Part shown: positions 5,360 through 64,000 of the stretch, one piece after another
Layout: each line of letters opens with the position of its first letter
How positions within the stretch are numbered: the stretch's first letter is position 1
Source of the DNA: Muricea muricata
Taxonomy: Eukaryota > Cnidaria > Anthozoa > Malacalcyonacea > Plexauridae
Assembly (NCBI GenBank): GCA_963855995.1
Contig: OY979719.1
Coordinates: 2,852,001-2,916,000, forward strand
Length of the DNA: 64,000 nt
Direction: 5' to 3'
Made by a program: the position numbers and the translations under genes
Notes under the pieces: generated by a model
What the model was told of the DNA's origin: nothing
The model's input: only the letters and a program-made list of their open reading frames with translations
The model's database searches: none

Positions 5360-8300
5360 TCACTGGACGAAAATATATCCAAATGTGAACTTTTTGTTTT
5401 TAGCTGTACTGGATTTGTACCAGTACCCACTCGACCACTCCAAACTGCCTATTTTAATACCAAAACCGATTACTGCTTTACAATTAGAACAATCATTTTT
5501 ATCGCTAGTTAAAATGCCAATTCGCGACTTTCTCCCTTTATACAGACACTGTGCATTAAATCCTTCCTTGGTGCAGTTAGGTTGTAATCTGGCGTCATTT
5601 ATGAGTGATTTCCATGTTTCTCTTCCTAAATTTGTTGCGTTGTAAATACCGTCTGCGATCACACTGTACAGCGAAGTTGCGGTGTAGTTGACAAGTATCC
5701 AGTTTGTGACGTCATTTCCAGTCATTCCCGGACAAATTTTGTCGAAAGGAGTGTTGTGATATGAAGCCAGCTTTGTTTCATTCTTTGCCGAACCATCCAC
5801 ACCTGCTTCAACATTCCATGTTTCCTTGTTTGCCCAGAATGAAGACTTGTATTCAAATGTTGTCTACAAAGCAATACAGAAAAACGTTTGTATCAGACCA
5901 AAAAAAATGTTCGTTTGAAATAGACCTTTCCGGTAATTACGTCACAGCTAACACTGTTTTCGACTTAGGACCACCTTAAATGTAGTGGATTTTAAGTTTG
6001 TTTCTCACAGGCTATGCTCAGAGGCCAAGAACGTACATTTTTCGTCAACACATACATAAAAAAGAATTTGGGATTTTGACTATTAATTAAACATGGTTAG
6101 CTTAAACATGAAAACGAGGCTGAGGGTCATGACACCCCCAGCGTCGGTTTCGTGTTTACGCTTATTTCCACATTTTTTGGTCAAAGCCCAAAATTCTTTT
6201 TTATGCATGTGTTGACGAAGGATGTCCTGCGCCTCTGACCATAGCCTGTGAGAAATAAACTTAAAATCCACTCTATTTAAGGTGGTCCTAAGTTGAAAAC
6301 AGTGTTAGGGACTGTAAGCTGTGACGTAATTACCGGAAAGGTCTATTGTAATATTCACTTTGATTTCGAGTGTGCTTGTCCTACAGTTTCACCTTGTTTC
6401 CATCCAATTTCATGACTAGTGTCCAACCCCCTCCGCCACACTTGCTAGACAAACTCGACATATGACAATAAACTGGATATATTTCTGAGCTCTCGTTTGA
6501 CTTGAGGTAGTAAACTCCATCGGTTGCTGAACTAAATAGAAGAAAAATTATGTTATAAACTTTGCAGTTTTAAACTCCCTAGCTACCTGTTGTAACCTGT
6601 GGTGAAACCAACCCGACAATTCAGCCATTCTAGCTATATAAACATTTCCGTGATTTTAGAGTAAGAAAACTATGAATTTTTAAAGAAATAAATAATGATA
6701 ATATTGCAGTCGATTTCAGCTAACTTTTCAATGTAATATTCCAAACTTCGTTGCGAAGTTCGGAAATCAAAAGTTCATTTCAGAATTCGCAAGCCGGTTT
6801 GTAAACTAAGCATTTGATTGGCTTCTTTGAGTTCTGAGGCCAATCACAGCCTTTGTTTGCAAACTGGCTTGCAAATTCTGAAATGAACTTTTGAACTTTG
6901 CAACGAATTTCCGAGCCAAACTTCGCAACGCAGTTCGGAATATTACAATGAACAGTTAGCTGAAATCGACTGTAAAACCTTGCATAGCACGACCCAATTT
7001 TCAGGGATTTGCCAATGCCTATGACTGTATGACTGTATGTATACAAATTTATCGATTGACCAAACTTGTGTGATTTCTTTCACATTAATACCGACGTATT
7101 AACGATCAAAAATATTCTGCGAGCCATCCAAACCAACCTGTTATTTTTGATAACTTCTTTGCATGAAGTGTGTGTTTCTAAAAAATGAACAAAAATTGAG
7201 TCAAAATATCAATAGCAAAAGCAAGACAGTTCTTCAAATTGGATGCCATTTTTAAAATCTTGATTATCGTGCACAGCAGAAGTTGTATAGCTCAAACAAT
7301 GAACCAACAATAGCCTAGGTTTGTATACACAACCTCGTACCCAGGCCCTCTTCTCTACGCTCCTCGCTGGAGGAAGAAACCCTGGTGAATGTCACGTGGC
7401 TCCCAGATTTTGGGAGCCGGCTTGTGACGAAGGTGGGTAGTACTTATTAATGTATGTAATTTTAGTCTTGCATTTGATGATAAATGTAACAAGAGTTACA
7501 TTTGCACAAATAACGTACGAATCCTTCCCTAACCAGTAATGGATATCTGAGTGACCCCAAAAATCTGGGAGCCACGTGACCAGCATTCGCTAAAATCTTT
7601 TCCCCAAGCGAGGATCGTAGAGAAGAGAGCCTGGGTACGAGGTTGATCTAAGATGTCTGTAACGCGTTATATAATTGTATTGCTTGCACTTTTCAGGCTT
7701 GTGGAATAATATCTAATTTCTTACTTTCACAACCATTGCCAGAAATTCCTGGTAAACAAGTACAAAAATAACCTCCAGATATATCATCATTACATTCTCC
7801 GTCGTTTGCACATGGCAAGGAGGAACAACTGTCAGCTGAAATATAACAAACAAAATTGTTTTTCCATGCAGTGCTGGTCAGTTTCGACAGCCAAACGGAG
7901 ATGTTTTTTTTGATAATCCGGCTCACCGCGGTAAGAGAAATGTTTAAGAAATTCCGGAGAACTTTTAGTCGAATATATTGACCTCATATTTTGAGCTTAA
8001 TCGAGCATATATGTGAATTCATTTCTTAATTTCACAATGAGTGTCTGTGGTCATGCATGTGCCGCTATTCACAATCAACAACATTTCCGTTCCTTACTTA
8101 ACGAACTTGTACATTTCCTGAACTGATAACTGCGCCTTTGTCAGTTAATCGAGAAACATATAGCGTTATCTTTAACACCTGTTTGATGATTTTCACAGGA
8201 GACATGTTCTTTTAAAAATTCTGAAATCAGGCTAATTCAACTTTTCAAAACACATTGCTACAACACCAGATCAGTGTACATGGCTTACAAAATGTGCAAA

Positions 8301-13505: not shown

Positions 13506-15073
13506 TATTAACAGGCTTTGTGATAACAATCAAAGACAATAAGCTATGGAAATTGGATTTCTAAAAAACGAACCACAAACAATGGTGAGTTTTGTTTCAA
13601 CAGTCCAAAACCTGATCATTTTAGGTTGGTATTTGGCCATCTACACTCACATTATACAATGTTTCACAAAATTTTCGTTTCTATAAAATATTGTATTGGT
13701 CTTTCTACAATTTCTTAAAGATTACATTTACGGGTTTTTTCAGCGAAATGTACGAGTGACGTCATTGAGAAATGACTTTGCAAAAGTGTAATAAAGTAGC
13801 GCTATATATGCGCAAGATAAAGAATTTAAATAAAGACTTAAAGATTTCAACGTTTACGGTTTAAACTAAGAATCATTTAAAGCAGTACACGTATATAAAC
13901 ACATGCAAATATATTGTGCCAATAAATCCTTCAATGTTAACGAAACATTTCAACGTGATTTCAATGTCGTTCACTGGACGATAATATATCCAAATGTATG
14001 TCCCAATATACCCAACTTTTTATTTTCAGATGTACTTGAACGGTACCGGTACCATTTGAAATTTTTATTTTCACTTTGATTTCGAGTGTGCTTGTTCTAC
14101 AGTCTCACCTTCATCGGCAGTTCACGGGTAAACCTTCTGGTGGCAATGTGCTTCACTGAACGAAAATATATCCAAATGCTTTCAATTTTTGTACCGTAGG
14201 AACAGTCTTAATGTTCCCACTTGACCAATGATTCGATCTTATTTGAAAACCAAAACCGATGACCGAATCACATCCTCCACAATTATTTTTATCATTACCA
14301 AAAATTCCAATTCGCGACTTCCGGCTACGATAAGAACACTGAACATTAAAACCTTCCTTGTTGCAATTAGGTTGTAATTCTGCGCCATTTATGAGTGACA
14401 TCCATTCTGCTCTTCCTGCTTTTGTCTCACTGGTAATTCCTTCTGCGATCACACTGTACAGTGAAGATGCGGCGTAGTCGACAAGTATCCAGTTTGTGAC
14501 GTCATTTTCAGTCATTCCCAGACAAATTTTGTCGAAAGAAGTGTTGTGATAGGAAGCCAGCTTTGTTTCATTCTTTTCCAAACCATTCAGACCTGCTTCA
14601 ACATTCCATATTTCCTTGTTTGTCCAAAATGAAGAGTTGTATATAAATGTTGGCTACAAAGCAATACAAAAAAACTTTTGTTAAAATCCGCAGGACTATT
14701 TTGCAAAACTTATATATTGTTTATCTAAATATTTTTCACCTTGTGTCCATCCAACTTCATGACTAGTGTCCAACCCTCTCCGCGACACTTGGTTGACAAA
14801 CTCGACATATGACAATAAACTGGATATATTTCTGAGCTCTCGTTTGACTTGAGGTAGTAAACTCCATCTGTTGCTGAACTAAATGCGAGACAAGTTATGT
14901 TGTAAATTTTGCAGTTTTAAACTCCCTAGCTACCTGTTATAACCTGTCGTGAAGCCAACCCGACAATTCAGCCATTCTAGCTGTAAACACTTCCGTGTTT
15001 TTAGAGTAAGAAAACTATGAATTTTTTAAGAAATAAATAATGATAATATTAAGTTGGTTTTAGTTAACGTTTC

Positions 15074-23070: not shown

Positions 23071-23079
23071 TTGTTCACT

Positions 23080-23418
23080 TGTGTTTATTCACGGTGTTTA
23101 TTCACGGGTGTTTATTCACGGGTGTTTATTCACGGGTGTTTATTCACGGGTGTTTATTCACGGGTGTTTATTCACGGGTGTTTATTCACGGGTGTTTATT
23201 CACGGGTGCTTATTCACGGGTGCTTATTCACTTGTGCTTATTCACTTGTGCTTATTCACTTGTGCTTATTCACTTGTGCTTATTCACTTGTGCTTATTCA
23301 CTTGTGCTTATTCACTTGTGCTTATTCACTTGTGCTTATTCACTTGTGCTTATTCACTTGTGCTTATTCACTTGTGCTTATTCACTTGTGCTTATTCACT
23401 TGTGTTCACGGGTGTTAT
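23080..23418. repeat. 14-bp minisatellite in two homogeneous blocks
   Basis: About nine units of TGTTTATTCACGGG are followed by about thirteen units of TGCTTATTCACTTG. The change is abrupt near 23,212-23,222. All plus-strand frames are open because the unit lacks stops, so the 130-147 residue frames are artefacts. Confidence 0.9.
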
Positions 23419-33360: not shown

Positions 33361-33444
33361 TGGGAGTCTCAAACTTTCCTGCATGTCGGTAGTGAACTAT
33401 CTTTAGGTAAGGGTTATTCTTAGGATCAATAGTTTCCTACCAGA

Positions 33445-34347
33445 ATGCTTGTGCTGGGACCATTACTTTTTATTATTTACACTAACGAATTGTCTTCTGT
33501 GGTCAACTCGTGCGAACTGTTGTTGTACGCGGATGATACTGTAATCTATTATTCATCGTCCAACATCAGAGATCTTGAGCAAAAATTAAACTCCGACCTT
33601 ACTAACCTTTGCCAGTGGCTTAATAACAACTTTTTAACCTTAAACGTTAGTAAATGTAAGTTTGTGCTCTTTGGAAGTCAGCAAAAGGTGCGTTCGTCTA
33701 GTCAACTTTCACTGAAAATTTACGATCACGTTTTGGAACGGAAGGACTCTTTTAAATACCTTGGTGTTAAAATTCATCAGAACATGTCCTGGTCTGATCA
33801 TATTGAAATCCTGTCGAGAAAAATCAGTCAAAGACTTTCTCTTCTTCGCCGCATAAGACATCTTCTTCCATTACATGCCCGTTTAGCAATCTACAACAGT
33901 CTTATTCTTCCTCTGTTTGATTATGGTGACATAGCTTGGGGCGATAAAAATAACATCGTACATATGGACCATCTTCAGATCTTGCAAAATAATGCCGCGC
34001 GGATAATACTGGACATGCCAAAATATTTTTCTGCATCTAAAGCGCTTGAGCAATTAAATTGGAAACCACTATCAGCTCGCCGATGTCGTCATCGTTGTAT
34101 TGCTATTTTTAAATGTTTAAATAAACTGGCTGACTTTGACTTTAATCTAATAAGGAACACTGATGTCCATAGTTATAACACCCGCATTAGCAATGATATT
34201 AATATTCCGTGGTCACGAACTAACTGGGGTAAACAGCGTTTCATTATTCATGCAGCAATGAACTGGAACAACTTAGAACTGAAAGTACGGCAGTCCACCA
34301 CTTTGACTGCATTCAAAAGGTCACTTAATAACGGACTCGTGATATAA
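33445..34347 (+). pseudogene. 5'-truncated non-LTR retrotransposon reverse transcriptase
   Basis: 300 codons open. It begins at the conserved LGPLLFIIYTNEL motif, then LLLYADDTVIYYSS (YADD catalytic pair), then FKYLGVKIH and the usual RT C-terminal tail (LRRIRHLLPLHARLAIYNSL, LPLFDYGDIAWG). The N-terminal RT blocks and endonuclease are missing. Upstream, CCAGAATG in place of the expected CCxCAGGG-type codons suggests a frameshift at the truncation. It is most like Jockey/CR1/L2-type LINEs; the clade is inference. It ends seven bases before a large palindrome. Confidence 0.85.
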
Positions 34348-45299: not shown

Positions 45300-48099
45300 A
45301 AATTGACTTCAGCCAGGCTTGAACCTGACCAACTTGCTTATAGTTTATCCACACCAAAACCTGGCAACACCCAGTCATGTCTGTACATGGCATTTAAATT
45401 GTTGACTTCAACCACCTTTTCCTCTTTATTTCATTCCAAATTTTTTGCCCAACGCCTGTACCCACTGCACCAATCGTTCATCGGTGTTAGCATGAGATGT
45501 AATTTATTCACTTTAACCATTTTTCCACCATTTTAAGCCAAAATATTTGCAAAGGACTTTAGCGGGATTTGAGCCAGACCAAGTGCAACTCACACTAACA
45601 CCTGTCACCACTGCACCATCCCATCTTGACCGAGCTTAAATGTAAATTGTTGACATTAACAATTTTTTCCTTTATTTCAATCCAAAACGTCTGCAAATGA
45701 CTTTAACAGAGTTTGAACCAGACCAATTGCTAATTCAGACCAAAGCCTGTAACACTGCATCACTCATTCATATGTTGAAAATAAGATGTTAATTACTGAC
45801 TTTAATGATTATTTTCTTCATTTTTACCCCAAAATGATTGCAAAGGACTTTAGCAGGACTTGAACCAGACGAATTGCTAATTCAGGCCAAAGCCTGTACC
45901 ACTACATCACTCAATCATGTTTGAAGAAAGGTGTTAATTATTGAGCTTGATAATTATTTCCTTTATTTTTACCCAAAAATGATTGCAAAGGACTTTAGCA
46001 GGACTTGAACCAGACCAATTGCTAATTCAGGCCAAAGCCTGTACCACCACATCACTCAATCATGTTTGAAGAAAGGTGTTAATTATTGAGCTTGATAATT
46101 ATTTCCTTTATTTTTACCCCAAAATGATTGAAAAGGACTTTAGCAGGACTTGAACCAGACCAATTGCTAATTCAGGCCAAAGCCTGTACCACCACATCAC
46201 TCAATCATGTTTGTAGAAAGGTGTTAATTATTGAGCTTGATAATTATTTCCTTTATTTTTACCCCAAAATGATTGCAAAGGACTTTAGCAGGACTTGAAC
46301 CAGACCAATTGCTAATTTAGGCCAAAGCCTGTACCACTACATCACTCAATCATGTTTGAAGAAAGGGGTTAATTATTGAGCTTAATAATTATTTCCTTTA
46401 TTTTTACCCCAAAATGTTTGCAAAGCGCGTTAGCAGGATTTGAACCAGACGAATTCTTAACTCTGGCCAAAGCCTGTAACACCACATCACTCCATCATGT
46501 TTCGTAATAGGTGTTAATTATTGACTTTAATCATTAGTTCCTTTATTTTTACCTCAAAATGTTTGCAAAGGACTTGAGGAGGATTTGAACCAGACCAATT
46601 GCTAATTCAAGCCGAAGTCTGTACCACTGCATTACTCAATCGTGTTTGAAACAGGATGCTAATTATCGACTTTAACCATTATTTCCTTTATTTTTACCCA
46701 AAAATTATTGCAAAGGACTTTAGAAGGATTTGAACCAGACCAATTGCTAAATCAGGCCAAAGCCTGTACCACTGCATTACTCAATCTTGTTTGCAAAAAG
46801 GTGTTAATTATTGACTTTAATAATTATTTCCTTTATTTTTACCCAAAAATGTTTGCAAAGGATCTTAGCAGCATTTGAACCAGACCAATTGCTAATTCAG
46901 GCCAAAGCCTGTAACACTGCACCACTCAATCATTTTTTAAAAAAGGATGTTAATTATTGACTTTAATGATTATTTTCTTCATTTTTACCCCAAAATGATT
47001 AAAAAGGACTTTAGCAGGATATGAACCAGACCAATTGCTAATTCAGGCCAAAGCCTGTAACACTACGTCACTCAATCACATTTTAAAAAAGGATGTTAAT
47101 TATTGACTTTAATGATTATTTCCTTTATTTTTACCCAAAAATGATTGCAAAGGACTTTAGAAGGATATGAACCAGACCAAATGCTAATTCAGGCCAAAGC
47201 CTGTAACACTACATCACTCAATCACTTTTTAAAAAAGGATGTTAATTATTGACTTTAATGATTATTTCCTTTATTTTTACCCAAAAATGATTGCAAAGGA
47301 CTTTAGAAGGATTTGAACCAGACCAATTGCTAAATCAGGCCAAAGTCTGTACCACTGCATTACTCAATCTTGTTTGCAAAAAGGTGTTAATTATTGACTT
47401 TAATAATTATTTCCTTTATTTTTACCCAAAAATGTTTGCAAAGGATCTTAGCAGCATTTGAACCAGACCAATTGCTAATTCAGGCCAAAGCCTGTACCAC
47501 TACATCACTCAATCATGTTTGAAGAAAGGTGTTAATTATTGAGCTTAATGATTATTTCCTTTATTTTTACCCCAAAATGATTGCAAAGGACTTTAGCAGG
47601 ATTTGCACCAGACCAATTCCCAACTCTGGCCAAAGCCTGTACCACCACATCACTCCATCATGTTTGGAAATAGGTGTTAATTGTTGACTTTAATCATTAG
47701 TTCCTTTATTTTTACCTCAAAATGTTTGCAAAGGACTCGAGGAGGATTTGAACCAATTGCTAATATAAGCCTAAGTCTGTACCACTGCATCACTCAAACA
47801 TGTTTAAAATAGGATCCTAATTATTGACTTCAATCATTTTTCCCTTTATTTTTACCCCAAAATGATTGCAAAGGACTTTAGCAGGATTTGAACCAGACCA
47901 ATTGCTAAATCAGGCCAAAGCCTGTACCACTGCATTACTCGATCTTATTTGCAAAAAGGTGTTAATTATTGACTTTAATAATTATTTCCTTTATTTTTAC
48001 CCCAAAATGTTAACAAAGGACTTTAGCAGCATTTAAACCAGACCAATCGCTAATTGCATCAAGCCAAAGCCTGTAACACTGCACCACTCAATCATTTTT
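45300..48099 (-). repeat. 145-bp tRNA-like satellite, block I
   Basis: About 19 monomers. Spacing between equivalent CAAAGGACTT sites is 145 bp (45,841; 45,986; 46,131; 46,276; 46,421; 46,566; 46,711). On the minus strand each has an A-box-like TGATGCAGTGG and, 32 bases on, GGTTCAAATCC, which fits the pol III B box GGTTCRANYCC. T4-T6 runs follow at about 20 and about 85 bases. The first three units (45,300-45,780) are degenerate, as at a satellite edge. Confidence 0.9.
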
Positions 48100-50653
48100 G
48101 TGGGTAGCCGCGCATGCGCAGCTAACCACTATGTTATAGCCTGAAAAGTGTCCGTATATATATACAAATGTCCACATCTTCGGCGAGCGTCGACTTGACG
48201 ACAATCTTTCGGGAAATGTCGTAAAGCACACGGAATTGCTGAAAAAACATTTCTTATTTACAAGGAGCGAGCGTGGAGACTTTTCGACAAATACCGTGGT
48301 GTTAAACTGAAGGTAAGTGCCATTTTGTCTTTGAAATAATGAGTTTTCTTATTCCAATCGCTGATTGTGTACTCTGATGGAATATTTTGATTTAATTTAA
48401 GAGCGTGCGAATAGAATCACACGGATCAAACTCTTATTTATGACCGTGCGAATAGAATCACACAGTTCTTGTTTAATATTGGTGTTATACGTGTACATTG
48501 AACTGTCCGCATGTCTCATCATATTCGTAAACAATCTGTACTTATTCAGTGCGAATCGTGCCTTCATTTGTCTTTAATTTGATATTGTTTTGTTTTTAGG
48601 CTAGCTGCTGCCCATCTGTATGTCAGTGTTGTTGGGAGCATTAGATCAATGCGATATCAAATCGACGAAAAGACCACAAAGATGAACTATCGATATATTT
48701 GACCTCAAACTTATTTGGTATTTTCATGCAGAATTATAAAATGTCCATTGGAACTAGAGATGCCAAACTGCAAGTGGCAAGTACTAAATAAGGGAAGCAC
48801 CATTGAACAGCTTGACAGTTGACACATTGATACAGGACAAAGGGAGGAAAATAACAAAAATTTCTGGCAACTAATATTTGTAAATATGCTTTAGAAATGA
48901 TGTAATTCAAATTACCTGATTCTCAGATTGATAAACGATGATAAGATATAACTATTAAACCTTGCAAACAAGCTAGCATCCATTCTGGATGAGTGATCTC
49001 GTACTGTTATCTCCAAACAATTAGTGGTGATACATGGGGATTCATACCAGCTCTTTGCTTTGTTTAAAGAGTTCACGACATTGTGTTTGCCAATAGCGAA
49101 TAACTGAATGGTGCAAACTAGCTGTGCATTAATACTGGAGCTGTGGTGTCATTCAAACCCGAAGATTTGACAACATCATGCCTGCTGTTGTTTCTTAAAT
49201 CCAAGTTATTAAATATGGAAGAACAAATTTACAAATTAAAGCTATTGTTCGACATCATATGTAATAAATAGTTTGCTTATATTAGAATAAACTAGTTAGT
49301 AGCTGATTAATTGAGCAATCTTCCATTCAGTGCCAGACACTTCATGAAATATTGGGGGGGGGGGCAAGTTCCAGGGGCCTCTTAAGATTTATATGTCTGT
49401 CCCATGGTAGAGGGATCTGGGGGCATGCTCCTACAGGAAAATTTTGAAAACTACCATCCTTGAAGCACTTTTTCTAGCATTTGGGAACGGTATTTTACAG
49501 AATTCCGAAGGCTGTGAAGTATGTGGAAGACATGATTTTTTCATGGATTATTCTCAATGGTAAATGAATGTGAAAATTTAAATAGAAAGAGGGACATAAA
49601 CTATTATTGAAATTTGTATCTTCCCCATACAACAATTGTCTTCAAGTCTCGAAAACCAAATCTGACTTCAAGACTAAGCCCTGATGCACAATCTCGTTAT
49701 ATTATATATCTAAATTGTACTGAATAATAAGTAATGATTCCACTTATTGAAATAAAAACTTTCTTGTGCTTCCACTTTTTAAAGTAAGCTTCAGTAAAAA
49801 TTATTGGGGGGTCTTGCACCCTCCTTCGCACCTCCCCCCTCCCTAGTGTCTGCCACTGCTTCCATTACCAATCAAAATTTAAAATTGGAAAACTTCTGAA
49901 AACTTACTGTTATTTCCATTAAATCCTGGCTTTATGTCTATATATACTTTGATGTGTACCACCATCCTGGAATTTTAGTTATATTTTTTCCTTCTCTATT
50001 TTCTTCAATTCTGTATACTTATGTTCAAAACTTTCTCTTTATTTTTGGTGTACCGGTACATATGTTGTCTGCATAGTATACTTGTACATTATGTTACTAA
50101 TTATGGTATTAATAAAATCTACTTTACTAGTTTAGCTTTGTGGAAACAGCCATGCAAATGTGCCAACTGCTTTGTCATAACTGTGTCCAATATATATGTT
50201 TACTAGTACACTTTTTTGGCAAGAGAGATTAAAACACTGGAAACGTATAATTAAGCATGACAATTTGTTGCAATTAACCATTGAAATGCTTATGGTACAC
50301 CAGTTTTGAACATTAAGTTGCAATGTAATCTAGGAATTAATTTCAGTTCGTATCAATAGTGGACTTTGTTACATAAACCCCCCAGAAGTCTACTTAGCGA
50401 GTGGTTTGAGCATAACCTGGAAAATTGTGACCACACTGACCACGGGTTTTTAACACTCACAATAGACCATTTTCGAGATATTGCCAGATAATATTGGAAA
50501 CAATGGAATCCTCAAAAAAGGTAAATTTTCAAGTGGGACAATCAGAATGGTAAAAAAATGCACTTGAAGTACATTTAGCGTCGAAAACTTCGAAATAACT
50601 AGCCTAGTGCACTGATCTTTTTGCGGCTACCCACATGTACGCTACGCGTACCT
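48100..50653. mobile_element. 2.55-kb TIR element inserted in the satellite
   Basis: GTGGGTAGCCGC begins at 48,100 and its exact complement GCGGCTACCCAC lies near the right end (about 50,622-50,633). The satellite is split at ATTTTT, present on both sides (48,094-48,099 and 50,654-50,659), and the uninterrupted sequence is seen in other monomers. Inside are an exon-like stretch ending at GTAAGT (about 48,311), a TTTTTAG acceptor (about 48,600) and direct repeats of GTGCGAATAGAATCACAC (48,404 and 48,445). No long frame, so a non-autonomous or decayed DNA transposon. The right TIR is about 20 bp internal to the break. Confidence 0.65.
49328..49858. mobile_element. hAT-like MITE nested in the 48.1-50.65 kb element
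   Basis: TIRs CAGTGCCAGACACTTCATG and CAGTGGCAGACACTAGGGAG (right complemented). A perfect 8-bp target duplication CTTCCATT sits at 49,320-49,327 and 49,859-49,866. Shares GGGGGG...CATGCTCC...GAAAATTTTGAAA sequence with the 42.36 kb element. Confidence 0.9.
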
Positions 50654-50940
50654 ATTTTTTAAAAAAGGGCGTTAATTATTGACTTTAGTGATTATTTTCT
50701 TCATTTTTACCCCAAAATGATTGCAAAGGACTTTAGCAGGATTTGAACCAGACCAATTGCTAATTCAGGCCAAAGCCTGTACCACTACATCACTCAATCA
50801 TGTTTGAAGAAAGGTGTTAATTATTGAGCTTAATGATTATTTCCTTTATTTTTACCCCAAAATGATTGCAAAGGACTTTAGCAGGAATTGAACCAGACCA
50901 ATTCCCAACTCCGGCCAAAGCCTGTACCACCACATCACTC
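50654..50940 (-). repeat. tRNA-like satellite, block II
   Basis: Two monomers continuing block I after the inserted element. They match 54,247 onward (AAAAAAGGGCGTTAATTATT). Truncated at 50,940 where the 21-bp minisatellite field begins. Confidence 0.85.
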
Positions 50941-50984
50941 TATGGAAAGCCATAGCTGTCTTAAGTGATAAAACGTCATTTCAT

Positions 50985-51500
50985 TAGGTGCTTTATACAT
51001 TATATACGGTGCTTTAAACATGACATGCGGTGCTTTGAGTATTATATGCGGTGCTTCAAACATTATATGCGGTGCTTTGAGCATTATATGCGGTGCTTTA
51101 AGCATTATATGCGGTGCTTTAATCATTATATGCGGTGCTTTAAACATTATATGCGGTGCTTTAAACATTATATGCGGTGCTTTAAACATTATATGCGGTG
51201 CTTTAAACATTATATGCGGTGCTTCGAGCATTATATGCGGTGCTTTAAACATTATATGCGGTGCTTCGAACATTATATGCGGTGCTTTGAACATTATATG
51301 CTGTGCTTTGAGCATTATACGCAGTGCTTTCATCATTATACGCAGGTATTTCATCATTATACGCGGTGCTTTCATCATTATATGCGGTGCTTTCATCATT
51401 ATACGCGGTGATTTCACCTTTGTACGCGGTGCTTTCATCATTATATGCGGTGCTTTCACCTTTATACGCAGTGCTTTGAACATTATACGCGGTGGTTCCA
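50985..51500. repeat. 21-bp minisatellite, about 24 units
   Basis: Unit GGTGCTTTAAACATTATATGC. Units before about 51,310 carry the TTTAAACATTATATGC type, later ones the TTTCATCATTATACGC type. Because 21 is a multiple of 3 and the unit lacks stops, long frames exist on both strands (7-residue repeats such as ICGALNI and MFKAPHI). No independent sign of coding. Confidence 0.9.
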
Positions 51501-51815
51501 GCGTCATTATACTCAGTGAGCCAGTACCTTTGGTCAGCGTTGTGGAATCTTACACAATTCTGCTATACGTCATGTCATCAAGAATATCTAAACACTCATC
51601 GAATATTCATAGGGCGATCACGTGTCATTTCCTGCTTGGAAATTTACAAGTTGAGCGCAGTTATAAAACGGTAAAATATATAAGACTTTTCTGGCGTTTT
51701 AAATCGAAAGTAAACCCAGGGGGTTTGAAATATGGAACAAATACTGCAATCTTTAAATTTGGGGACTTTGCGTGGCCGATTTGAAGCACAGCGAATAGAA
51801 CCGCAGGCAGTTTAA

Positions 51816-53290
51816 AATTTAATGGGAAAAAAATTGAAAAAAAATTTGGGAAAAAATTTTGAAAAAAGTTAGGGAAAAAAATTTGAAAAAAAATTCTGGA
51901 AAAAATTTTGACAAAAAACTTTGACAAAAAATTCTGAAAAAAAAATTTGGGAAAAAATCTTGCAAAAAAATTCTGGAAAAAATTTTGAAAAAAAAATTGG
52001 GAAATCATGAATAATTCATGAATAATTCAAGAATTTTTCAGGAAAAAATCTTGAAAAAAATTCCGGAAAAAATTTTGAAAAAGAAATTGGGAAAAAATTT
52101 TTTTGTCAAAACTTTTTCCTAATTTTTTTTCAAATTTTTCTCCCAAATTTTTTTTCAGAATTTTTTCCCAAATTTTTTTTTCAAATTTTTTTTCCCAAAC
52201 TTTTTTTCAAAATTTTTTCCCAAATTTTTTTAGAATTCTTTTTCCAAATTTTTTTTTCAGAATTTTTTTCCAAATTTTTTTTCGAAATTTTTTCCCAAAT
52301 TTTTTTGGGAAATTTTAAAAAAAATTTGGGAAAAAAATTTTGAAAAAAAAATTTGGGAAAAAATTCTGAAAAAAATTTGGGAAATCATGAATAATTCATG
52401 AATAATTCATGAAATTCATGAATAATTCATGAATGATTCATGAATAATTCATGAATTTTCCAGGAAAAAATCTTGAAAAAAATTCAGGAAAAAATTTTGA
52501 AAAAGAAATTGGGAAAAAAAAATTTTGTTAAAACTTTTTCCTAATTTTTTTCAAGATTTTTTCCTGAAAAATTCATGAATTATTCATGATCATGAATTAT
52601 TCATGATTTTCATGAATTATTCATGATTATTCATGAATTATTCATGAATTTCCCAAATTTTTTTTCAAAATTCTTTCCAGAATTTTTTTTCAAGATTTTT
52701 TCCCAAATTTTTTTCGGAATTTTTTGTCAAAGTTTTTTGTCAAATTTTTTTCCCAAACTTTTTTCAAAATTTTTTCCCAAATTTTTTATTCAAAATTTTC
52801 CCCAATATTTTTCATGAATTATCATGAATTATTCATGAAATATTCATGAATTATTCATGAATTTCCCAAATTTTTTTTTCAAAATTTTTTCCAGAATTTT
52901 TTTTCAAGATTTTTTCCCAAATTTTTTTCAGAATTTTTTGTCAAAATTTTTTCCCGAATTTTTTTTCAAATTTTTTTCCCAAAATTTTTTCCCAAATTTT
53001 TTGTTCAAAATTTTTCCCAATATTTTTGTCAATTTTTTTTTCAGAATTTTTTCCCAAATTTTTTTTTTAGAATTTTTTCCCACATTTTTTTTCAAAATTT
53101 TTTCCCAAATTTTTTTGTTCAAAATTTTCCCCAATATTTTTCATGAATTATCATGAATTATTCATGATATTCATGAATTATTCATGAATTTCCCAAATTT
53201 TTTTTCAAAATTTTTTCCAGAATTTTTTTTCAAGATTTTTTCCCAAATTTTTTTCAGAATTTTTTGCCAAAATTTTTTTTTAGAATTTTT
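51816..53290. repeat. Purine/pyrimidine strand-switching repeat field
   Basis: 51,816-52,100 and about 52,313-52,520 are runs of GGGAAAAAATTTTGAAAAA type; 52,100-52,312 and 52,525-53,290 are the complement type (TTTTTTCCCAAATTTT). Switch points carry CATGAATAATTCATGAA palindrome clusters. The frames of F/N/P/K repeats are artefacts. Confidence 0.85.
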
Positions 53291-53295
53291 TCCCA

Positions 53296-56200
53296 ATGAT
53301 TGCAAAGGACTTTAGAAGGATTTGAACCAGACCAATTGCTAAATCAGGCCAAAGTCTGTACCACTGCATTACTCAATCTTGTTTGCAAAAAGGTGTTAAT
53401 TATTGACTTTAATAATTATTTCCTTTATTTTTACCCAAAAATGTTTGCAAAGGATCTTAGCAGCATTTGAACCAGACCAATTGCTAATTCAGGCCAAAGC
53501 CTGCAACACTGCACCACTCAATCATTTTTTAAAAAAGGATGTTAATTATTGACTTTAATGATTATTTTCTTCATTTTTACCCCAAAATGATTAAAAAGGA
53601 CTTTAGCAGGATATGAACCAGACCAATTGCCAACTCTGGCCAAAGCCTGTACCACCACATCACTCCATCATGTTTGGAAATAGGTGTTAATTGTTGACTT
53701 TAATCATTAGTTCCTTTATTTTTACCTCAAAATGTTTGCAAAGGACTTGAGGAGGATTTGAACCGATTACTAATATAAGCCAAAGTCTGTACCACTGCAT
53801 CACTCAAACATGTTCAAAATAGGATCCTAATTATTGACTTCAATCATTTTTCCCTTTATTTTTACCCCAAAATGATTGCAAAGGACTTTAGCAGGATTTG
53901 AACCAGACCAATTGCTAAATCAGGCCAAAGCCTGTACCACTGCATTACTCGATCTTATTTGCAAAAAGGTGTTAATTATTGACTTTAATAATTATTTCCT
54001 TTATTTTTACCCCAAAATGATTGCAAAGGACTTTAGAAAGATTTGAACCAGACCAATTGCTAAATCAAACTAAAGCCAGTACCACTGCATCACTCAATCT
54101 TGTTTGAAATAGGATGTTAATTATTGACTTTAATAATTATTTCCTTCATCATTACCCAAAAATGTTAACAAAGGACTTTAGCAGCATTTAAACCAGACCA
54201 ATCGCTAATTGCATCAAGCCAAAGCCTGTAACACTGCACCACTCAATCATTTTTTAAAAAAGGGCGTTAATTATTGACTTTAGTGATTATTTTCTTCATT
54301 TTTACCCCAAAATGATTGCAAAGGACTTTAGCAGGATTTGAACCAGACCAATTGCTAATTCAGGCCAAAGCCTGTACCACTACATCACTCAATCATGTTT
54401 GAAAAAAGGTGTTAATTATTGACTTTAATAATTGTTTCCTGTATTTTTACCCCAAAATGACTGCAAAGGGCTTTAGCAGGATTTGAACCACACCATTTGC
54501 TAATGATGGCCAAAGCCTGTACCATTACATCACTCAATCATGTTTGCAAACAGGTGTTAATTATTGACTTTAATAATTGTTTCCTTTATTTTTACTCCAA
54601 AATGATTGCAAAGCGCGTTAGCAGGATTTGAACCAGACGAATTCTTAACTCTGGCCAAAGCCTGTAACTCCACATCACTCCATCATGTTTCGTAATAGGT
54701 GTTAATTATTGACTTTAATCATTAGTTCCTTTATTTTTACCTCAAAATGTTTGCAAAGGACTTGAGGAGGATTTGAACCAGACCAATTGCTACTTCAAGC
54801 CGAAGTCTGTACCACTGCATTACTCAATCGTGTTTGAAACAGGATGCTAATTATTGACTTAAACCATTATTTCCTTTATTTTTACCCCAAAATGATTGCA
54901 AAGGACTTTAGAAGGATTTGAACCATACCAATTGCAAAATCAGGCCAAAGCCTGTACCACCACATCACTCAATCTAGTTTGAAATAGGTTGTTAATTATT
55001 GACTTTAATAACTATTTCCTTTATTTTTACCCCAAAATGTTTGCAAAGGACTTTAGCAGCATTTGAACCGGATTAATTGCTAATTGCATGAAGCCAAAGC
55101 CTGTAACACTACATCACTCAGTCATGTTTAAAAAAAGGATGTTGATTATTGACTTAATAATTGTTTCCTTTATTTTTACCCCAAAATGATTGCAAAGGGC
55201 TTTAGCAGGATTTGAACCACACCAATTGCTAACTCTGCCCAAAGCATGTACCACCACATCACTCCATCATGTTTGGTAAAAGGTGTTAATTATTGACTTT
55301 AATCATTAGTTTCTTCATTTTTACCTCAAAATGTGCGCAAAAGACTTTGGGAGGATTTGAACCAGACCAATTGCTAAATCAAGCCAAAGCCTGTACCACT
55401 GCATTACTCAATCTTGTTCGCAAAAAGGTGTTAATTATTGACTTTAATGATTATTTCCTTTATTTTTACCCAAAAATGATTGCAAAGGACTTTAGAAGGA
55501 TTTGAACCAGACCAATTGCTAAATCAGGCCAAAGTCTGTACCACTGCATTACTCAATCTTGTTTGCAAAAAGGTGTTAATTATTGACTTTAATAATTATT
55601 TCCGTTATTTTTACCCAAAAATGTTTGCAAAGGATCTTAGCAGCATTTGAACCAGACCAATTGCTAATTCAGGCCAAAGCCTGCAACACTGCACCACTCA
55701 ATCATTTTTTAAAAAATGATGTTAATTATTGACTTTAATGATTATTTTCTTCATTTTTACCCCAAAATGATTAAAAAGGACTTTAGCAGGATATGAACCA
55801 GACCAATTGCCAACTCTGGCCAAAGCCTGTACCACCACATCACTCCATCATGTTTGGAAATAGGTGTTAATTGTTGACTTTAATCATTAGTTCCTTTATT
55901 TTTACCTCAAAATGTTTGCAAAGGACTTGAGGAGGATTTGAACCGATTACTAATATAAGCCAAAGTCTGTACCACTGCATCACTCAAACATGTTTAAAAT
56001 AGGATCCTAATTATTGACTTCAATCATTTTTCCCTTTATTTTTACCCCAAAATGATTGCAAAGGACTTTAGCAGGATTTGAACCAGACCAATTGCTAAAT
56101 CAGGCCAAAGCCTGTACCACTGCATTACTCGATCTTATTTGCAAAAAGGTGTTAATTATTGACTTTAATAATTATTTCCTTTATTTTTACCCCAAAATGA

Positions 56201-59200
56201 TTGCAAAGGACTTTAGAAAGATTTGAACCAGACCAATTGCTAAATCAAACTAAAGCCAGTACCACTGCATCACTCAATCTTGTTTGAAATAGGATGTTAA
56301 TTATTGACTTTAATAATTATTTCCTTCATCATTACCCAAAAATGTTAACAAAGGACTTTAGCAGCATTTAAACCAGACCAATCGCTAATTGCATCAAGCC
56401 AAAGCCTGTAACACTGCACCACTCAATCATTTTTTAAAAAAGGGCGTTAATTATTGACTTTAGTGATTATTTTCTTCATTTTTACCCCAAAATGATTGCA
56501 AAGGACTTTAGCAGGATTTGAACCAGACCAATTGCCAATTCAGGCCAAAGCCTGTACCACTACATCACTCAATCATGTTTGAAAAAAGGTGTTAATTATT
56601 GACTTTAATAATTGTTTCCTGTATTTTTACCCCAAAATGACTGCAAAGGGCTTTAGCAGGATTTGAACCACACCAATTGCTAACGATGGCCAAAGCCTGT
56701 ACCATTACATCACTCAATCATGTTTGCAGAAAGGTGTTAATTATTGACTTTAATAATTGTTTCCTTTATTTTTACTCCAAAATGATTGCAAAAGGCTTTA
56801 GCAGGATTTGAACCAGACCAATTCCTAACTCTGGCCAAAGCCTGTACCACCACATCACTCCATCATGTTTGGAAATAGGTGTTAATTGTTGACTTTAATC
56901 ATTAGTTCCTTTATTTTTACCTCAAAGTTTTTGCAAAGGACATGAGGAGGATTTGAACCAGACCAATTGCTAATTTAAGCCAAAGTCTGTACCACTGCAT
57001 CACTCAAACATGTTTAAAATAGGATCCTAATTATTGACTTTAATCATTTTCCACTTTATTTTTACTCCAACATGATTGCAAAGGACTTTAGCAGGATTTG
57101 AACCAGACCAATTGCTAAATCAGGCCACAGCCTGTACCACTACATCACTCAATCATGTTTGCAAAAAGGTGTTAATTATTGACTTTAATAATTGTTTCCT
57201 TTATTTTTACTCCAAAATGATTGCAAAGGGCTTTAGCAGGATTTGAACCAGACCAATTGCTAATTCAGGCCAGAACCAGACTTTAATGATTATTTTCTTT
57301 ATTATTACCCCAAAATGATTGCCAAGGACTTTAGCAGGACTTGAACCAGACCAATTGCCAATTCAGGCCAAAGCCTGTACCACTACATCACTCAATCATG
57401 TTTGAAGAAAGGGGTTAATTATTGAGCTTAATAATTATTTCCTTTATTTTTACCCCAAAATGTTTGCAAAGCGCGTTAGCAGGATTTGAACCAGACGAAT
57501 TCTTAACTCTGGCCAAAGCCTGTAACACCACATCACTCCATCATGTTTTGTAATAGGTGTTAATTATTGACTTTAATCATTAGTTCCTTTATTTTTACCT
57601 CAAAATGTTTGCAAAGGACTTGAGGAGGATTTGAACCAGACCAATTGCTAATTCAAGCCGAAGTCTGTACTACTGCATTACTCAATCGTGTTTGAAACAG
57701 GATGCTAATTATTGACTTTAACCATTATGTCCTTTATTTTTACCCCAAAATGATTGCAAAGGACTTTAGAAGGATTTGAACCATACCAATTGCAAAATCA
57801 GGCCAAAGCCTGTACCACCACATCACTCAATCTAGTTTGAAATAGGATGTTAATTATTGACTTTAATAACTATTTCCTTTATTTTTACCCCAAAATGTTT
57901 GCAAAGGACTTTAGCAGCATTTGAACCGGATTAATTGCTAATTGCATGAAGCCAAAGCCTGTAACACTAAATCACTCAGTCATGTTTAAAAAAAGGATGT
58001 TGATTATTGACTTAATAATTGTTTCCTTTATTTTTACCCCAAAATGTTTGCAAAGGATCTTAGCAGCATTTGAACCAGACCAATTGCTAATTCAGGCCAA
58101 AGCCTGTAACACTGCACCACTCAATCATTTTTTAAAAAAGGATGTTAATTATTGACTTTAATGATTATTTCCTTTATTTTTACCCAAAAATGATTGCAAA
58201 GGACTTTAGAAGGATTTGAACCAGACCAATTGCTAAATCAGGCCAAAGTCTGTACCACTGCATTACTCAATCTTGTTTGCAAAAAGGTGTTAATTATTGA
58301 CTTTAATAATTATTTCCTTTATTTTTACCCAAAAATGTTTGCAAAGGATCTTAGCAGCATTTGAACCAGACCAATTGCTAATTCAGGCCAAAGCCTGCAA
58401 CACTGCACCACTCAATCATTTTTTAAAAAAGGATGTTAATTATTGACTTTAATGATTATTTTCTTCATTTTTACCCCAAAATGATTAAAAAGGACTTTAG
58501 CAGGATATGAACCAGACCAATTGCCAACTCTGGCCAAAGCCTGTACCACCACATCACTCCATCATGTTTGGAAATAGGTGTTAATTGTTGACTTTAATCA
58601 TTAGTTCCTTTATTTTTACCTCAAAATGTTTGCAAAGGACTTGAGGAGGATTTGAACCGATTACTAATATAAGCCAAAGTCTGTACCACTGCATCACTCA
58701 AACATGTTTAAAATAGGATCCTAATTATTGACTTCAATCATTTTTCCCTTTATTTTTACCCCAAAATGATTGCAAAGGACTTTAGCAGGATTTGAACCAG
58801 ACCAATTGCTAAATCAGGCCAAAGCCTGTACCACTGCATTACTCGATCTTATTTGCAAAAAGGTGTTAATTATTGACTTTAATAATTATTTCCTTTATTT
58901 TTACCCCAAAATGATTGCAAAGGACTTTAGAAAGATTTGAACCAGACCAATTGCTAAATCAAACTAAAGCCAGTACCACTGCATCACTCAATCTTGTTTG
59001 AAATAGGATGTTAATTATTGACTTTAATAATTATTTCCTTCATCATTACCCAAAAATGTTAACAAAGGACTTTAGCAGCATTTAAACCAGACCAATCGCT
59101 AATTGCATCAAGCCAAAGCCTGTAACACTGCACCACTCAATCATTTTTTAAAAAAGGGCGTTAATTATTGACTTTAGTGATTATTTTCTTCATTTTTACC

Positions 59201-62200
59201 CCAAAATGATTGCAAAGGACTTTAGCAGGATTTGAACCAGACCAATTGCTAATTCAGGCCAAAGCCTGTACCACTACATCACTCAATCATGTTTGAAAAA
59301 AGGTGTTAATTATTGACTTTAATAATTGTTTCCTGTATTTTTACCCCAAAATGACTGCAAAGGGCTTTAGCAGGATTTGAACCACACCATTTGCTAATGA
59401 TGGCCAAAGCCTGTACCATTACATCACTCAATCATGTTTGCAAACAGGTGTTAATTATTGACTTTAATAATTGTTTCCTTTATTTTTACTCCAAAATGAT
59501 TGCAAAGCGCGTTAGCAGGATTTGAACCAGACGAATTCTTAACTCTGGCCAAAGCCTGTAACTCCACATCACTCCATCATGTTTCGTAATAGGTGTTAAT
59601 TATTGACTTTAATCATTAGTTCCTTTATTTTTACCTCAAAATGTTTGCAAAGGACTTGAGGAGGATTTGAACCAGACCAATTGCTACTTCAAGCCGAAGT
59701 CTGTACCACTGCATTACTCAATCGTGTTTGAAACAGGATGCTAATTATTGACTTAAACCATTATTTCCTTTATTTTTACCCCAAAATGATTGCAAAGGAC
59801 TTTAGAAGGATTTGAACCATACCAATTGCAAAATCAGGCCAAAGCCTGTACCACCACATCACTCAATCTAGTTTGAAATAGGTTGTTAATTATTGACTTT
59901 AATAACTATTTCCTTTATTTTTACCCCAAAATGTTTGCAAAGGACTTTAGCAGCATTTGAACCGGATTAATTGCTAATTGCATGAAGCCAAAGCCTGTAA
60001 CACTACATCACTCAGTCATGTTTAAAAAAAGGATGTTGATTATTGACTTAATAATTGTTTCCTTTATTTTTACCCCAAAATGATTGCAAAGGGCTTTAGC
60101 AGGATTTGAACCACACCAATTGCTAACTCTGCCCAAAGCATGTACCACCACATCACTCCATCATGTTTGGTAAAAGGTGTTAATTATTGACTTTAATCAT
60201 TAGTTTCTTCATTTTTACCTCAAAATGTGCGCAAAAGACTTTGGGAGGATTTGAACCAGACCAATTGCTAAATCAAGCCAAAGCCTGTACCACTGCATTA
60301 CTCAATCTTGTTCGCAAAAAGGTGTTAATTATTGACTTTAATGATTATTTCCTTTATTTTTACCCAAAAATGATTGCAAAGGACTTTAGAAGGATTTGAA
60401 CCAGACCAATTGCTAAATCAGGCCAAAGTCTGTACCACTGCATTACTCAATCTTGTTTGCAAAAAGGTGTTAATTATTGACTTTAATAATTATTTCCGTT
60501 ATTTTTACCCAAAAATGTTTGCAAAGGATCTTAGCAGCATTTGAACCAGACCAATTGCTAATTCAGGCCAAAGCCTGCAACACTGCACCACTCAATCATT
60601 TTTTAAAAAATGATGTTAATTATTGACTTTAATGATTATTTTCTTCATTTTTACCCCAAAATGATTAAAAAGGACTTTAGCAGGATATGAACCAGACCAA
60701 TTGCCAACTCTGGCCAAAGCCTGTACCACCACATCACTCCATCATGTTTGGAAATAGGTGTTAATTGTTGACTTTAATCATTAGTTCCTTTATTTTTACC
60801 TCAAAATGTTTGCAAAGGACTTGAGGAGGATTTGAACCGATTACTAATATAAGCCAAAGTCTGTACCACTGCATCACTCAAACATGTTTAAAATAGGATC
60901 CTAATTATTGACTTCAATCATTTTTCCCTTTATTTTTACCCCAAAATGATTGCAAAGGACTTTAGCAGGATTTGAACCAGACCAATTGCTAAATCAGGCC
61001 AAAGCCTGTACCACTGCATTACTCGATCTTATTTGCAAAAAGGTGTTAATTATTGACTTTAATAATTATTTCCTTTATTTTTACCCCAAAATGATTGCAA
61101 AGGACTTTAGAAAGATTTGAACCAGACCAATTGCTAAATCAAACTAAAGCCAGTACCACTGCATCACTCAATCTTGTTTGAAATAGGATGTTAATTATTG
61201 ACTTTAATAATTATTTCCTTCATCATTACCCAAAAATGTTAACAAAGGACTTTAGCAGCATTTAAACCAGACCAATCGCTAATTGCATCAAGCCAAAGCC
61301 TGTAACACTGCACCACTCAATCATTTTTTAAAAAAGGGCGTTAATTATTGACTTTAGTGATTATTTTCTTCATTTTTACCCCAAAATGATTGCAAAGGAC
61401 TTTAGCAGGATTTGAACCAGACCAATTGCCAATTCAGGCCAAAGCCTGTACCACTACATCACTCAATCATGTTTGAAAAAAGGTGTTAATTATTGACTTT
61501 AATAATTGTTTCCTGTATTTTTACCCCAAAATGACTGCAAAGGGCTTTAGCAGGATTTGAACCACACCAATTGCTAACGATGGCCAAAGCCTGTACCATT
61601 ACATCACTCAATCATGTTTGCAGAAAGGTGTTAATTATTGACTTTAATAATTGTTTCCTTTATTTTTACTCCAAAATGATTGCAAAAGGCTTTAGCAGGA
61701 TTTGAACCAGACCAATTCCTAACTCTGGCCAAAGCCTGTACCACCACATCACTCCATCATGTTTGGAAATAGGTGTTAATTGTTGACTTTAATCATTAGT
61801 TCCTTTATTTTTACCTCAAAGTTTTTGCAAAGGACATGAGGAGGATTTGAACCAGACCAATTGCTAATTTAAGCCAAAGTCTGTACCACTGCATCACTCA
61901 AACATGTTTAAAATAGGATCCTAATTATTGACTTTAATCATTTTCCACTTTATTTTTACTCCAACATGATTGCAAAGGACTTTAGCAGGATTTGAACCAG
62001 ACCAATTGCTAAATCAGGCCACAGCCTGTACCACTACATCACTCAATCATGTTTGCAAAAAGGTGTTAATTATTGACTTTAATAATTGTTTCCTTTATTT
62101 TTACTCCAAAATGATTGCAAAGGGCTTTAGCAGGATTTGAACCAGACCAATTGCTAATTCAGGCCAGAACCAGACTTTAATGATTATTTTCTTTATTATT

Positions 62201-64000
62201 ACCCCAAAATGATTGCCAAGGACTTTAGCAGGACTTGAACCAGACCAATTGCCAATTCAGGCCAAAGCCTGTACCACTACATCACTCAATCATGTTTGAA
62301 GAAAGGGGTTAATTATTGAGCTTAATAATTATTTCCTTTATTTTTACCCCAAAATGTTTGCAAAGCGCGTTAGCAGGATTTGAACCAGACGAATTCTTAA
62401 CTCTGGCCAAAGCCTGTAACACCACATCACTCCATCATGTTTTGTAATAGGTGTTAATTATTGACTTTAATCATTAGTTCCTTTATTTTTACCTCAAAAT
62501 GTTTGCAAAGGACTTGAGGAGGATTTGAACCAGACCAATTGCTAATTCAAGCCGAAGTCTGTACTACTGCATTACTCAATCGTGTTTGAAACAGGATGCT
62601 AATTATTGACTTTAACCATTATGTCCTTTATTTTTACCCCAAAATGATTGCAAAGGACTTTAGAAGGATTTGAACCATACCAATTGCAAAATCAGGCCAA
62701 AGCCTGTACCACCACATCACTCAATCTAGTTTGAAATAGGATGTTAATTATTGACTTTAATAACTATTTCCTTTATTTTTACCCCAAAATGTTTGCAAAG
62801 GACTTTAGCAGCATTTGAACCGGATTAATTGCTAATTGCATGAAGCCAAAGCCTGTAACACTAAATCACTCAGTCATGTTTAAAAAAAGGATGTTGATTA
62901 TTGACTTAATAATTGTTTCCTTTATTTTTACCCCAAAATGTTTGCAAAGGATCTTAGCAGCATTTGAACCAGACCAATTGCTAATTCAGGCCAAAGCCTG
63001 TAACACTGCACCACTCAATCATTTTTTAAAAAAGGATGTTAATTATTGACTTTAATGATTATTTCCTTTATTTTTACCCAAAAATGATTGCAAAGGACTT
63101 TAGAAGGATTTGAACCAGACCAATTGCTAAATCAGGCCAAAGTCTGTACCACTGCATTACTCAATCTTGTTTGCAAGAAGGTGTTAATTATTGACTTTAA
63201 TAATTATTTCCTTTATTTTTACCCAAAAATGTTTGCAAAGGATCTTAGCAGCATTTGAACCAGACCAATTGCTAATTCAGGCCAAAGCCTGCAACACTGC
63301 ACCACTCAATCATTTTTTAAAAAAGGATGTTAATTATTGACTTTAATGATTATTTTCTTCATTTTTACCCCAAAATGATTAAAAAGGACTTTAGCAGGAT
63401 ATGAACCAGACCAATTGCCAACTCTGGCCAAAGCCTGTACCACCACATCACTCCATCATGTTTGGAAATAGGTGTTAATTGTTGACTTTAATCATTAGTT
63501 CCTTTATTTTTACCTCAAAATGTTTGCAAAGGACTTGAGGAGGATTTGAACCAATTACTAATATAAGCCAAAGTCTGTACCACTGCATCACTCAAACATG
63601 TTTAAAATAGGATCCTAATTATTGACTTCAATCATTTTTCCCTTTATTTTTACCCCAAAATGATTGCAAAGGACTTTAGCAGGATTTGAACCAGACCAAT
63701 TGCTAAATAAGGCCAAAGCCTGTACCACTGCATTACTCGATCTTATTTGCAAAAAGGTGTTAATTATTGACTTTAATAATTATTTCCTTTATTTTTACCC
63801 CAAAATGATTGCAAAGGACTTTAGAAAGATTTGAACCAGACCAATTGCTAAATCAAACTAAAGCCAGTACCACTGCATCACTCAATCTTGTTTGAAATAG
63901 GATGTTAATTATTGACTTTAATAATTATTTCCTTCATCATTACCCAAAAATGTTAACAAAGGACTTTAGCAGCATTTAAACCAGACCAATCGCTAATTGC
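53296..64000 (-). repeat. tRNA-like satellite, block III, 4,894-bp higher-order repeat
   Basis: ATGATTGCAAAGGACTTTAG at 53,296, 58,190 and 63,084 defines a 4,894-bp period: 53,296-58,189, 58,190-63,083 and a third copy running off the window. Each higher-order copy has about 34 monomers, including one shortened to 98 bp (57,221-57,318, again at 62,115). A nested 2,180-bp (15-monomer) duplication aligns 53,296 with 55,476. Minus-strand A and B boxes persist in nearly every monomer. Confidence 0.92.

Follow-up and report, generated by a model that had tools for sequence, protein, structure and literature searches.

The locus considered here raises the question of whether a tandem array whose monomers carry transfer RNA-like promoter boxes is an ordinary satellite, amplified where it stands, or one part of an element that has spread through the genome. 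The array lies in the right-hand part of a 64,000-nucleotide stretch of the plexaurid cnidarian Muricea muricata (GenBank assembly GCA_963855995.1, contig OY979719.1, positions 2,852,001 to 2,916,000 of the forward strand), the whole of which is referred to as the window. The monomers and their boxes recur at many other sites, in arrays that diverge from a center and at some loci share a flanking repeat, and the family, which is dispersed and non-coding, probably has a foldback-like organization in which the array of the window makes up the long left arm of one locus.

The array and its continuation beyond the window

In the window, Tandem Repeats Finder gave period-145 arrays over most of 45,497-63,998, with a unit of 144-146 bp, and a monomer profile searched with nhmmer gave 98 matches between 45,301 and 63,998, all on the minus strand, of which 92 are near full length (∼145 bp each). 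This agrees well with a preliminary description of the same DNA, which had counted about 95 monomers of about 145 bp on one strand. The array passes the window edge and reaches approximately C4:2,921,904 (contigs are cited by handles of this form), beyond which the monomers switch to the plus strand, up to approximately C4:2,923,644; a lone minus-strand fragment of 12.6 bits lies within this plus arm.

Dispersal of the family and orientation of the arrays

A core pattern of the monomer (26 places, up to 3 mismatches) has at least 3,769 matches in the genome, as against 10 for a reversed control. The monomer search of the genome found related arrays on C3, C4, C7, C10, and C13; the tRNA-like part of the monomer was listed on C5 also, and the core pattern also occurs on C2. 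Amplification in place, proposed in the preliminary description as tandem and "not by dispersed" copying, is not supported, because the family is present on many contigs, its arrays occur in mirror-image pairs, and a longer inverted repeat is shared by some of the loci. Nor did the related dispersed short interspersed element (SINE) that had been expected appear among the 17 loci read, none of which is solitary and none of which yielded a solitary dispersed copy with target-site duplications.

The loci read comprise a set of 14 together with L061, L062, and L063, and their strands were called from monomer matches of at least 25 bits. Ten loci of the first set are two-stranded, and L061 brings the number to 11 of 17; at all 11 there is a single flip, with minus-strand monomers on the left and plus-strand monomers on the right, pointing outward. 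Three further, unread loci (C3:2.15, C5:5.43-5.46, and C5:16.85 Mb) have the same strand order among the matches listed, and no plus-to-minus transition is found in eight two-strand clusters among the matches listed, where 165 of 327 listed monomer rows were used after thinning of rows from the same array. At the same threshold, the size of an arm ranges from 1 to 138 monomers.

The centers of these loci are also alike. At 8 of the 11, the leaders of two monomers (model positions 2-28) face each other with no more than 47 bp between them; at seven of the eight, one near-complete leader (beginning at 2-4) stands opposite one cut at 19-28, and at the eighth both leaders are cut at 24. The scores of two center monomers are as low as 14 and 23 bits, and some loci are close relatives (C3:8.12 and 9.85 Mb) and therefore not all independent; exact-leader patterns, considered for counting centers and rejected, match at most L061 among the loci read. 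Because 8 of the 11 centers share this leader layout, they look like copies of one ancestral junction, rather than the products of separate inversions. Telomere-like (GGGCTA)n or CCCTAA variants are present at or near several centers (L052 3515-3910, L062 1-150, L047, L049, and L059).

The outer flank and the larger palindrome

Beyond the plus arm, the loci at C3:1.70, 9.85, and 11.67 Mb and at C4:4.49 Mb have a flank in common, designated F, over ∼1 to 2.5 kb or more in a masked comparison. At C3:11.67 Mb, an inverted copy of F also lies on the far side of the minus arm, with 100% identity over 2,938 bp; the two arms there are 100% or nearly 100% identical in their outer ∼8 kb and 84-90% identical toward the center, a difference that suggests conversion between the arms or a recent event. 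F extends outward past 3 kb and forms mirrored pairs at several loci. The main matches of a 601-base piece of F number 40 and are distributed over nine contigs (40 of 66 rows, short second pieces being left out). All six pairs of F within 35 kb are divergent, and F near a listed monomer is on the same strand and distal in 12 of 13 cases; in the remaining case, the comparison was with the opposite arm. Identity of F is 94-95% among C3:8.12, 9.85, and 11.67 Mb and falls to 73-79% in diverged, older copies. The F stretches gave no Rfam match up to an E value of 0.5. Coding sequence was considered for a conserved block of F and rejected, since the two sequences compared have 3, 4, and 2 substitutions over the codon positions and seven gap columns.

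A block of ∼275 bp in the outer flank (C4:4509665-4509940) has copies on C2, C3, C8, C9, C11, C14, and C15, mostly at 80-88% identity in old copies where the remaining query fails to align, and does not resemble coding sequence. Contig C1 is the largest and accounts for about one-quarter of the genome, with matches up to 123 Mb. No monomer is located there among the matches listed, and none of the 34 places of the outermost piece of F (all candidates scored) is on C1, but another flank piece has five weak matches there (69-75%), which speaks against full absence; P-element and MULE matches are frequent on this contig. Elsewhere, P-element-like transposase matches occur as divergent pairs separated by ∼1 kb, the two members scoring the same or almost the same (C3:12956642/12957683, C3:36959850/36960891, and C11:5882520/5883556), and these are possible mirror-image P-type elements.

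Promoter boxes of the monomer

The boxes were scored with an A/B-box weight matrix derived from 22 human tRNAs, which were also the comparison set. The consensus of the window scores 23.9 and the cross-locus consensus 25.1, whereas the opposite strands score −4.7 and −4.3, respectively, and for each consensus none of 2000 dinucleotide shuffles reached its score. All 92 window monomers, and 547 of 608 monomers from 13 loci (near full length, at least 40 bits), are above the 99th percentile of shuffles; 68 of the 92 score at least as high as the weakest of the 22 tRNAs, as do 325 of the 608, compared with 0 of 1824 shuffles. A B-box frequency no higher than in shuffled monomers had been named beforehand as one of the results that would refute the preliminary description; the box pattern lies far above chance.

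The distance from the start of the A box to that of the B box in the window monomers is 43 bases in 55 of 92 and 51 in 21 of 92, the former being the distance found in many of the 22 tRNAs; in the monomer at 53872..54014, for example, TAATGCAGTGG and GGTTCAAATCC begin 43 bases apart. TTTT follows 23 nt past GGTTCRANN (21 nt past the 11-base B box) at 70 of 81 window sites. These features support the presence in the monomer of a type 2 promoter pattern for RNA polymerase III (pol III), in which an A box is followed at tRNA spacing by a B box and then by a T-run, and because the boxes have this spacing and the T-run a near-fixed position, each unit has the appearance of a small pol III gene, roughly 90-95 nt in length. 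The preliminary description had assigned two literal motifs to each monomer; the A and B boxes and the T-run that it recognized are indeed there, but the strings themselves are rarer, with 13 exact copies of TGATGCAGTGG and 54 of GGTTCAAATCC on the minus strand of the window and only two places where both occur exactly at the 32-base spacing.

Conservation of the boxes, assessed on the same 608 monomers, depends on the level at which it is measured. Between 13 loci, the B box ranks 5th of 130 among 11-mers, the position one base upstream being ranked 1st, and the A box is average (62nd of 130). Within arrays, the B box ranks 32nd and the A box 79th of 130 for eight loci taken together, and 14th and 100th of 130, respectively, at the locus of the window itself; the block that is best conserved within arrays is the leader AGTCAATAATTTAC, which is not tRNA-like. 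Gaps occupy 0.5% of the A-to-B stretch and 3.2% elsewhere. Within arrays, the boxes are thus not clearly better conserved, over the eight loci together, than other parts of the monomer, and selection on the promoter is not clearly indicated, except perhaps in part for the B box.

Possible kinship to tRNA and tests for folded RNA

Judged from comparisons of sequence and predicted fold, the monomer is tRNA-like in its promoter only, and outside the two boxes the case for a tRNA ancestry is weak. ARAGORN and Rfam found no real tRNA in the window, where Rfam at its gathering cut-off gave no match of any kind, tRNA or hammerhead. In two related stretches (L051 and L045), neither a tRNA nor a hammerhead was matched up to an E value of 10, and four others (L046, L047, L060, and L058) gave no Rfam match up to 0.5. 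The best Rfam match over the boxes in L051 is lincRNA-p21_2, which is not a tRNA and, with an E value of 0.78, is far below the cut-off. A hammerhead or retrozyme interpretation has no Rfam support in the window or the related stretches. When a cloverleaf was fitted to 15 sequences, 44.3% of the cells were paired, equal to the value for shuffles, and the RNAalifold consensus has an energy of −1.04 kcal/mol and 8 pairs, in 3 of which both partners are changed in at least one sequence.

Against the 22 tRNAs, the cross-locus consensus is most like Gln, a weak likeness matched by 14 of 500 shuffles in which the boxes were left intact, and the window consensus is most like Cys (33 of 500); the best likenesses of two other locus consensuses were matched by 120 and 74 of 500 such shuffles.

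Composition of the window

The array is broken by two inserts, at ∼48,100-50,656 and ∼51,010-53,295; the coordinates of its parts are collected in Table 1. The insert at 48100-50656 contains no open frame of 110 residues or more and is a candidate non-autonomous transposon, and insert 2 contains, from 51,823 and among other sequences, A/T-run simple repeats. The higher-order repeat that begins at 53,295 has a unit of 4,894 bp in ∼2.8 copies, and when shifted by one unit it has 8 mismatches in the first 8,684 bases (20 if the decaying edge is included), so that it is recent.

Table 1. Parts of the array in the window
Feature	Position	Strand	Description
Array block 1	45301..48107	minus	Outer end of the probable left arm; 20 monomer matches, with divergence in the outermost few
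Insert 1, transposon-like	48100..50656	no strand	Inverted ends GTGGGTAGCCGC..GCGGCTACCCAC; sits within a monomer
Array block 2	50657..51010	minus	3 monomer matches, 2 of them partial
Insert 2	50987..53294	no strand	24 copies of a 21-bp repeat at 50,987-51,494
Array block 3	53295..63998	minus	4,894-bp higher-order repeat; extends beyond the window
Example monomer	53872..54014	minus	Leader GTCAATAATTAAC, A-box-like TAATGCAGTGG, B box GGTTCAAATCC, then TTTT

Outside the array, three similar minus-strand open frames of 166-167 residues (346-849, 5360-5863, and 14153-14653) form a small gene family, and the two of them that were tested have no Pfam match over the cut-off. A 14-bp minisatellite at 23074-23404 (23.7 copies, 98% matches) is open in all three plus-strand frames, and 33433-34347 is a reverse transcriptase fragment (RVT_1, E value 4.8e-14).

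Discussion

In the foldback interpretation, a head-to-head center would send two tandem arrays of ∼146-bp monomers outward, and at some loci the arrays would be enclosed by the further inverted flank F, of more than 3 kb. An ancestral head-to-head pair would have spread to numerous sites; it was probably a foldback transposon of the non-autonomous kind, a non-coding inverted-repeat element with a tRNA-related unit in its arms, and would have been moved by some enzyme. The arms may have grown by unequal exchange, a route suggested by the young 4,894-bp higher-order repeat, and exchange between them may keep them alike, as over the ∼8 kb at C3:11.67 Mb that are 100% or nearly 100% identical. The A and B boxes and the T-run would have been inherited from the tRNA-related unit, and TFIIIC may still bind to them, or short outward RNAs, roughly 90-95 nt in length, may start from them.

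Several observations weigh against this interpretation. The ends of the arrays differ among the loci read, which showed neither a fixed terminus nor a target-site duplication; F was followed outward past 3 kb, to a point short of its outer end. No transposase was found, there being no open frame longer than 137 residues in four F stretches. Among the listed matches, the nearest MULE match is 142 kb and the nearest P-element match 58 kb from any listed locus, distances that are based on 43 of 103 MULE and 65 of 150 P-element rows (the omitted rows are on C1 and on small contigs with no listed locus) from a search in which 150 of 269 MULE and 150 of 338 P-element candidates were scored. Transposition is accordingly a matter of inference, since neither ends nor target-site duplications were read and the listed MULE and P-element matches are this distant. 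Six of the 17 loci have plus-strand monomers only at 25 bits or more; three of these stretches start inside an array or beside its center, two have weak minus-strand pieces where the left arm is expected, and one has a lone 9-bit minus-strand fragment to the right of its plus-strand monomers. Below 25 bits, the strand order is broken by stray fragments at C3:58.09, C3:9.85, C10:11.1, and C4:2.90 Mb. F is absent from the locus of the window and from several others, and at C13:11.18 Mb a piece of it is on the inner side. Finally, some of the loci could have been spread by segmental duplication.

If segmental duplication, for example palindrome-driven, were the origin of the loci generally, no mobile element would be needed. 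We consider this unlikely on balance: it is in keeping with the lack of observed termini and target-site duplications, with the close kinship of the loci at C3:8.12, 9.85, and 11.67 Mb (F at 94-95%), and with the telomere-like CCCTAA/GGGCTA repeats at or near several centers, but less readily with monomers or F on at least 12 contigs among the matches listed, with the very different arm lengths, or with F copies as diverged as 73-79%. Mis-assembly could likewise generate exact palindrome arms and near-exact higher-order repeats, and the ∼100% identity seen in the 4,894-bp repeat, as well as between the outer arms of the C3:11.67 Mb locus, might be read in that way; however, the inner arms of that palindrome differ by 10-16%, five other loci have arms whose longest match is at 84-98% identity, and the orientation rule holds at 14 loci, which makes an artifact very improbable.

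The boxes and the tandem structure would also be expected if a tRNA-derived SINE had been amplified in place into an ordinary satellite, of the SINE-derived or PolIII kind for which cases are described (PMC10702118), with inversions arising by chance. That origin appears quite unlikely in view of the dispersal over many contigs, the lack of any solitary locus among the 17 read, the divergence of all 14 two-strand loci (11 read and 3 listed), 8 of them with similar centers, and the shared inverted flank. About equally doubtful is the proposal that selection maintains the arrays as platforms for pol III or TFIIIC, acting as boundaries or as sources of a family of short RNAs. The rank of the B box across loci and at the locus of the window, the scarcity of gaps from A to B, and the nearly fixed T-run are in its favor, but the A box is undistinguished at every level, both boxes rank lower within the arrays of the eight loci, the best conserved block there is the non-tRNA leader, and there is no conserved fold.

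The foldback interpretation may be extended, with little confidence, to arms that act as batteries of outward-firing tRNA-type promoters around a palindromic center. If that were so, TFIIIC and pol III on the arms would open chromatin, block spreading, or drive fork stalling at the center, arm-bound factors would favor copying to new sites and growth of the arms, and pol III promoters would be coupled to the spread of a DNA element.

Comparison with known systems

The closest parallel in layout is Tetris (TIR-220), a foldback transposon of Drosophila virilis with 8-10-bp target-site duplications and no conserved open reading frames (PMC4079207). As described there, each mirrored arm has a flanking domain on its outer side, then repeats of ∼220 bp in variable number, and then an inner domain; the repeats have expanded into arrays resembling satellites, and some contigs hold the repeat but lack the flanking domain. 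The Muricea loci resemble Tetris in their mirrored layout and in having two inverted arms with variable numbers of tandem repeats, but the monomer here has tRNA-type A and B boxes and a T-run, the arms reach ∼25 kb with inserts as compared with up to 1.7 kb, and the flank exceeds 3 kb as compared with up to 866 bp; moreover, no target-site duplication or terminus was seen here, in F sequence that stops short of the outer end.

The monomer itself is reminiscent of PolIII/TAN of newt, OAX (Satellite 1) of Xenopus, Rana/PolIII, and Hy/PolIII, amphibian tandem repeats of ∼200-360 nt or longer that are claimed to include a tRNA-related, pol III-type region and for which no parent SINE is established according to PMC10702118, where the tRNA origin of Hy/PolIII is doubted; two of them are also tabulated in PMC9659126. 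They share with the Muricea family a tandem monomer with a tRNA-like promoter region, but all are amphibian, and the descriptions given of them in PMC10702118 make no mention of mirror-image arms. The SINE-derived satellites of squamates are likewise tandem, with some units of similar size, and can include part of the tRNA-related head or the B box, but their parent SINEs are known (PMC10702118), in contrast with the absence of solitary copies from the loci read here. Metazoan retrozymes, as characterized in PMC7229834, are also short tandem repeats (150-450 bp) of animal genomes, including that of a coral, but contain a type I hammerhead ribozyme, of which Rfam gave no indication here.

Foldback elements that seed satellites and satellites with pol III promoters are each known separately, and searches restricted to open-licence PMC papers found none that joins foldback arms with pol III-type monomers. 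In M. muricata, the two are combined in one family with thousands of copies, whose arms point only outward wherever both are seen. A caution follows, in that what looks like a satellite within a single window may be one arm of a dispersed element, and the family offers a natural system for asking whether the spread of a repeat is aided by pol III boxes.

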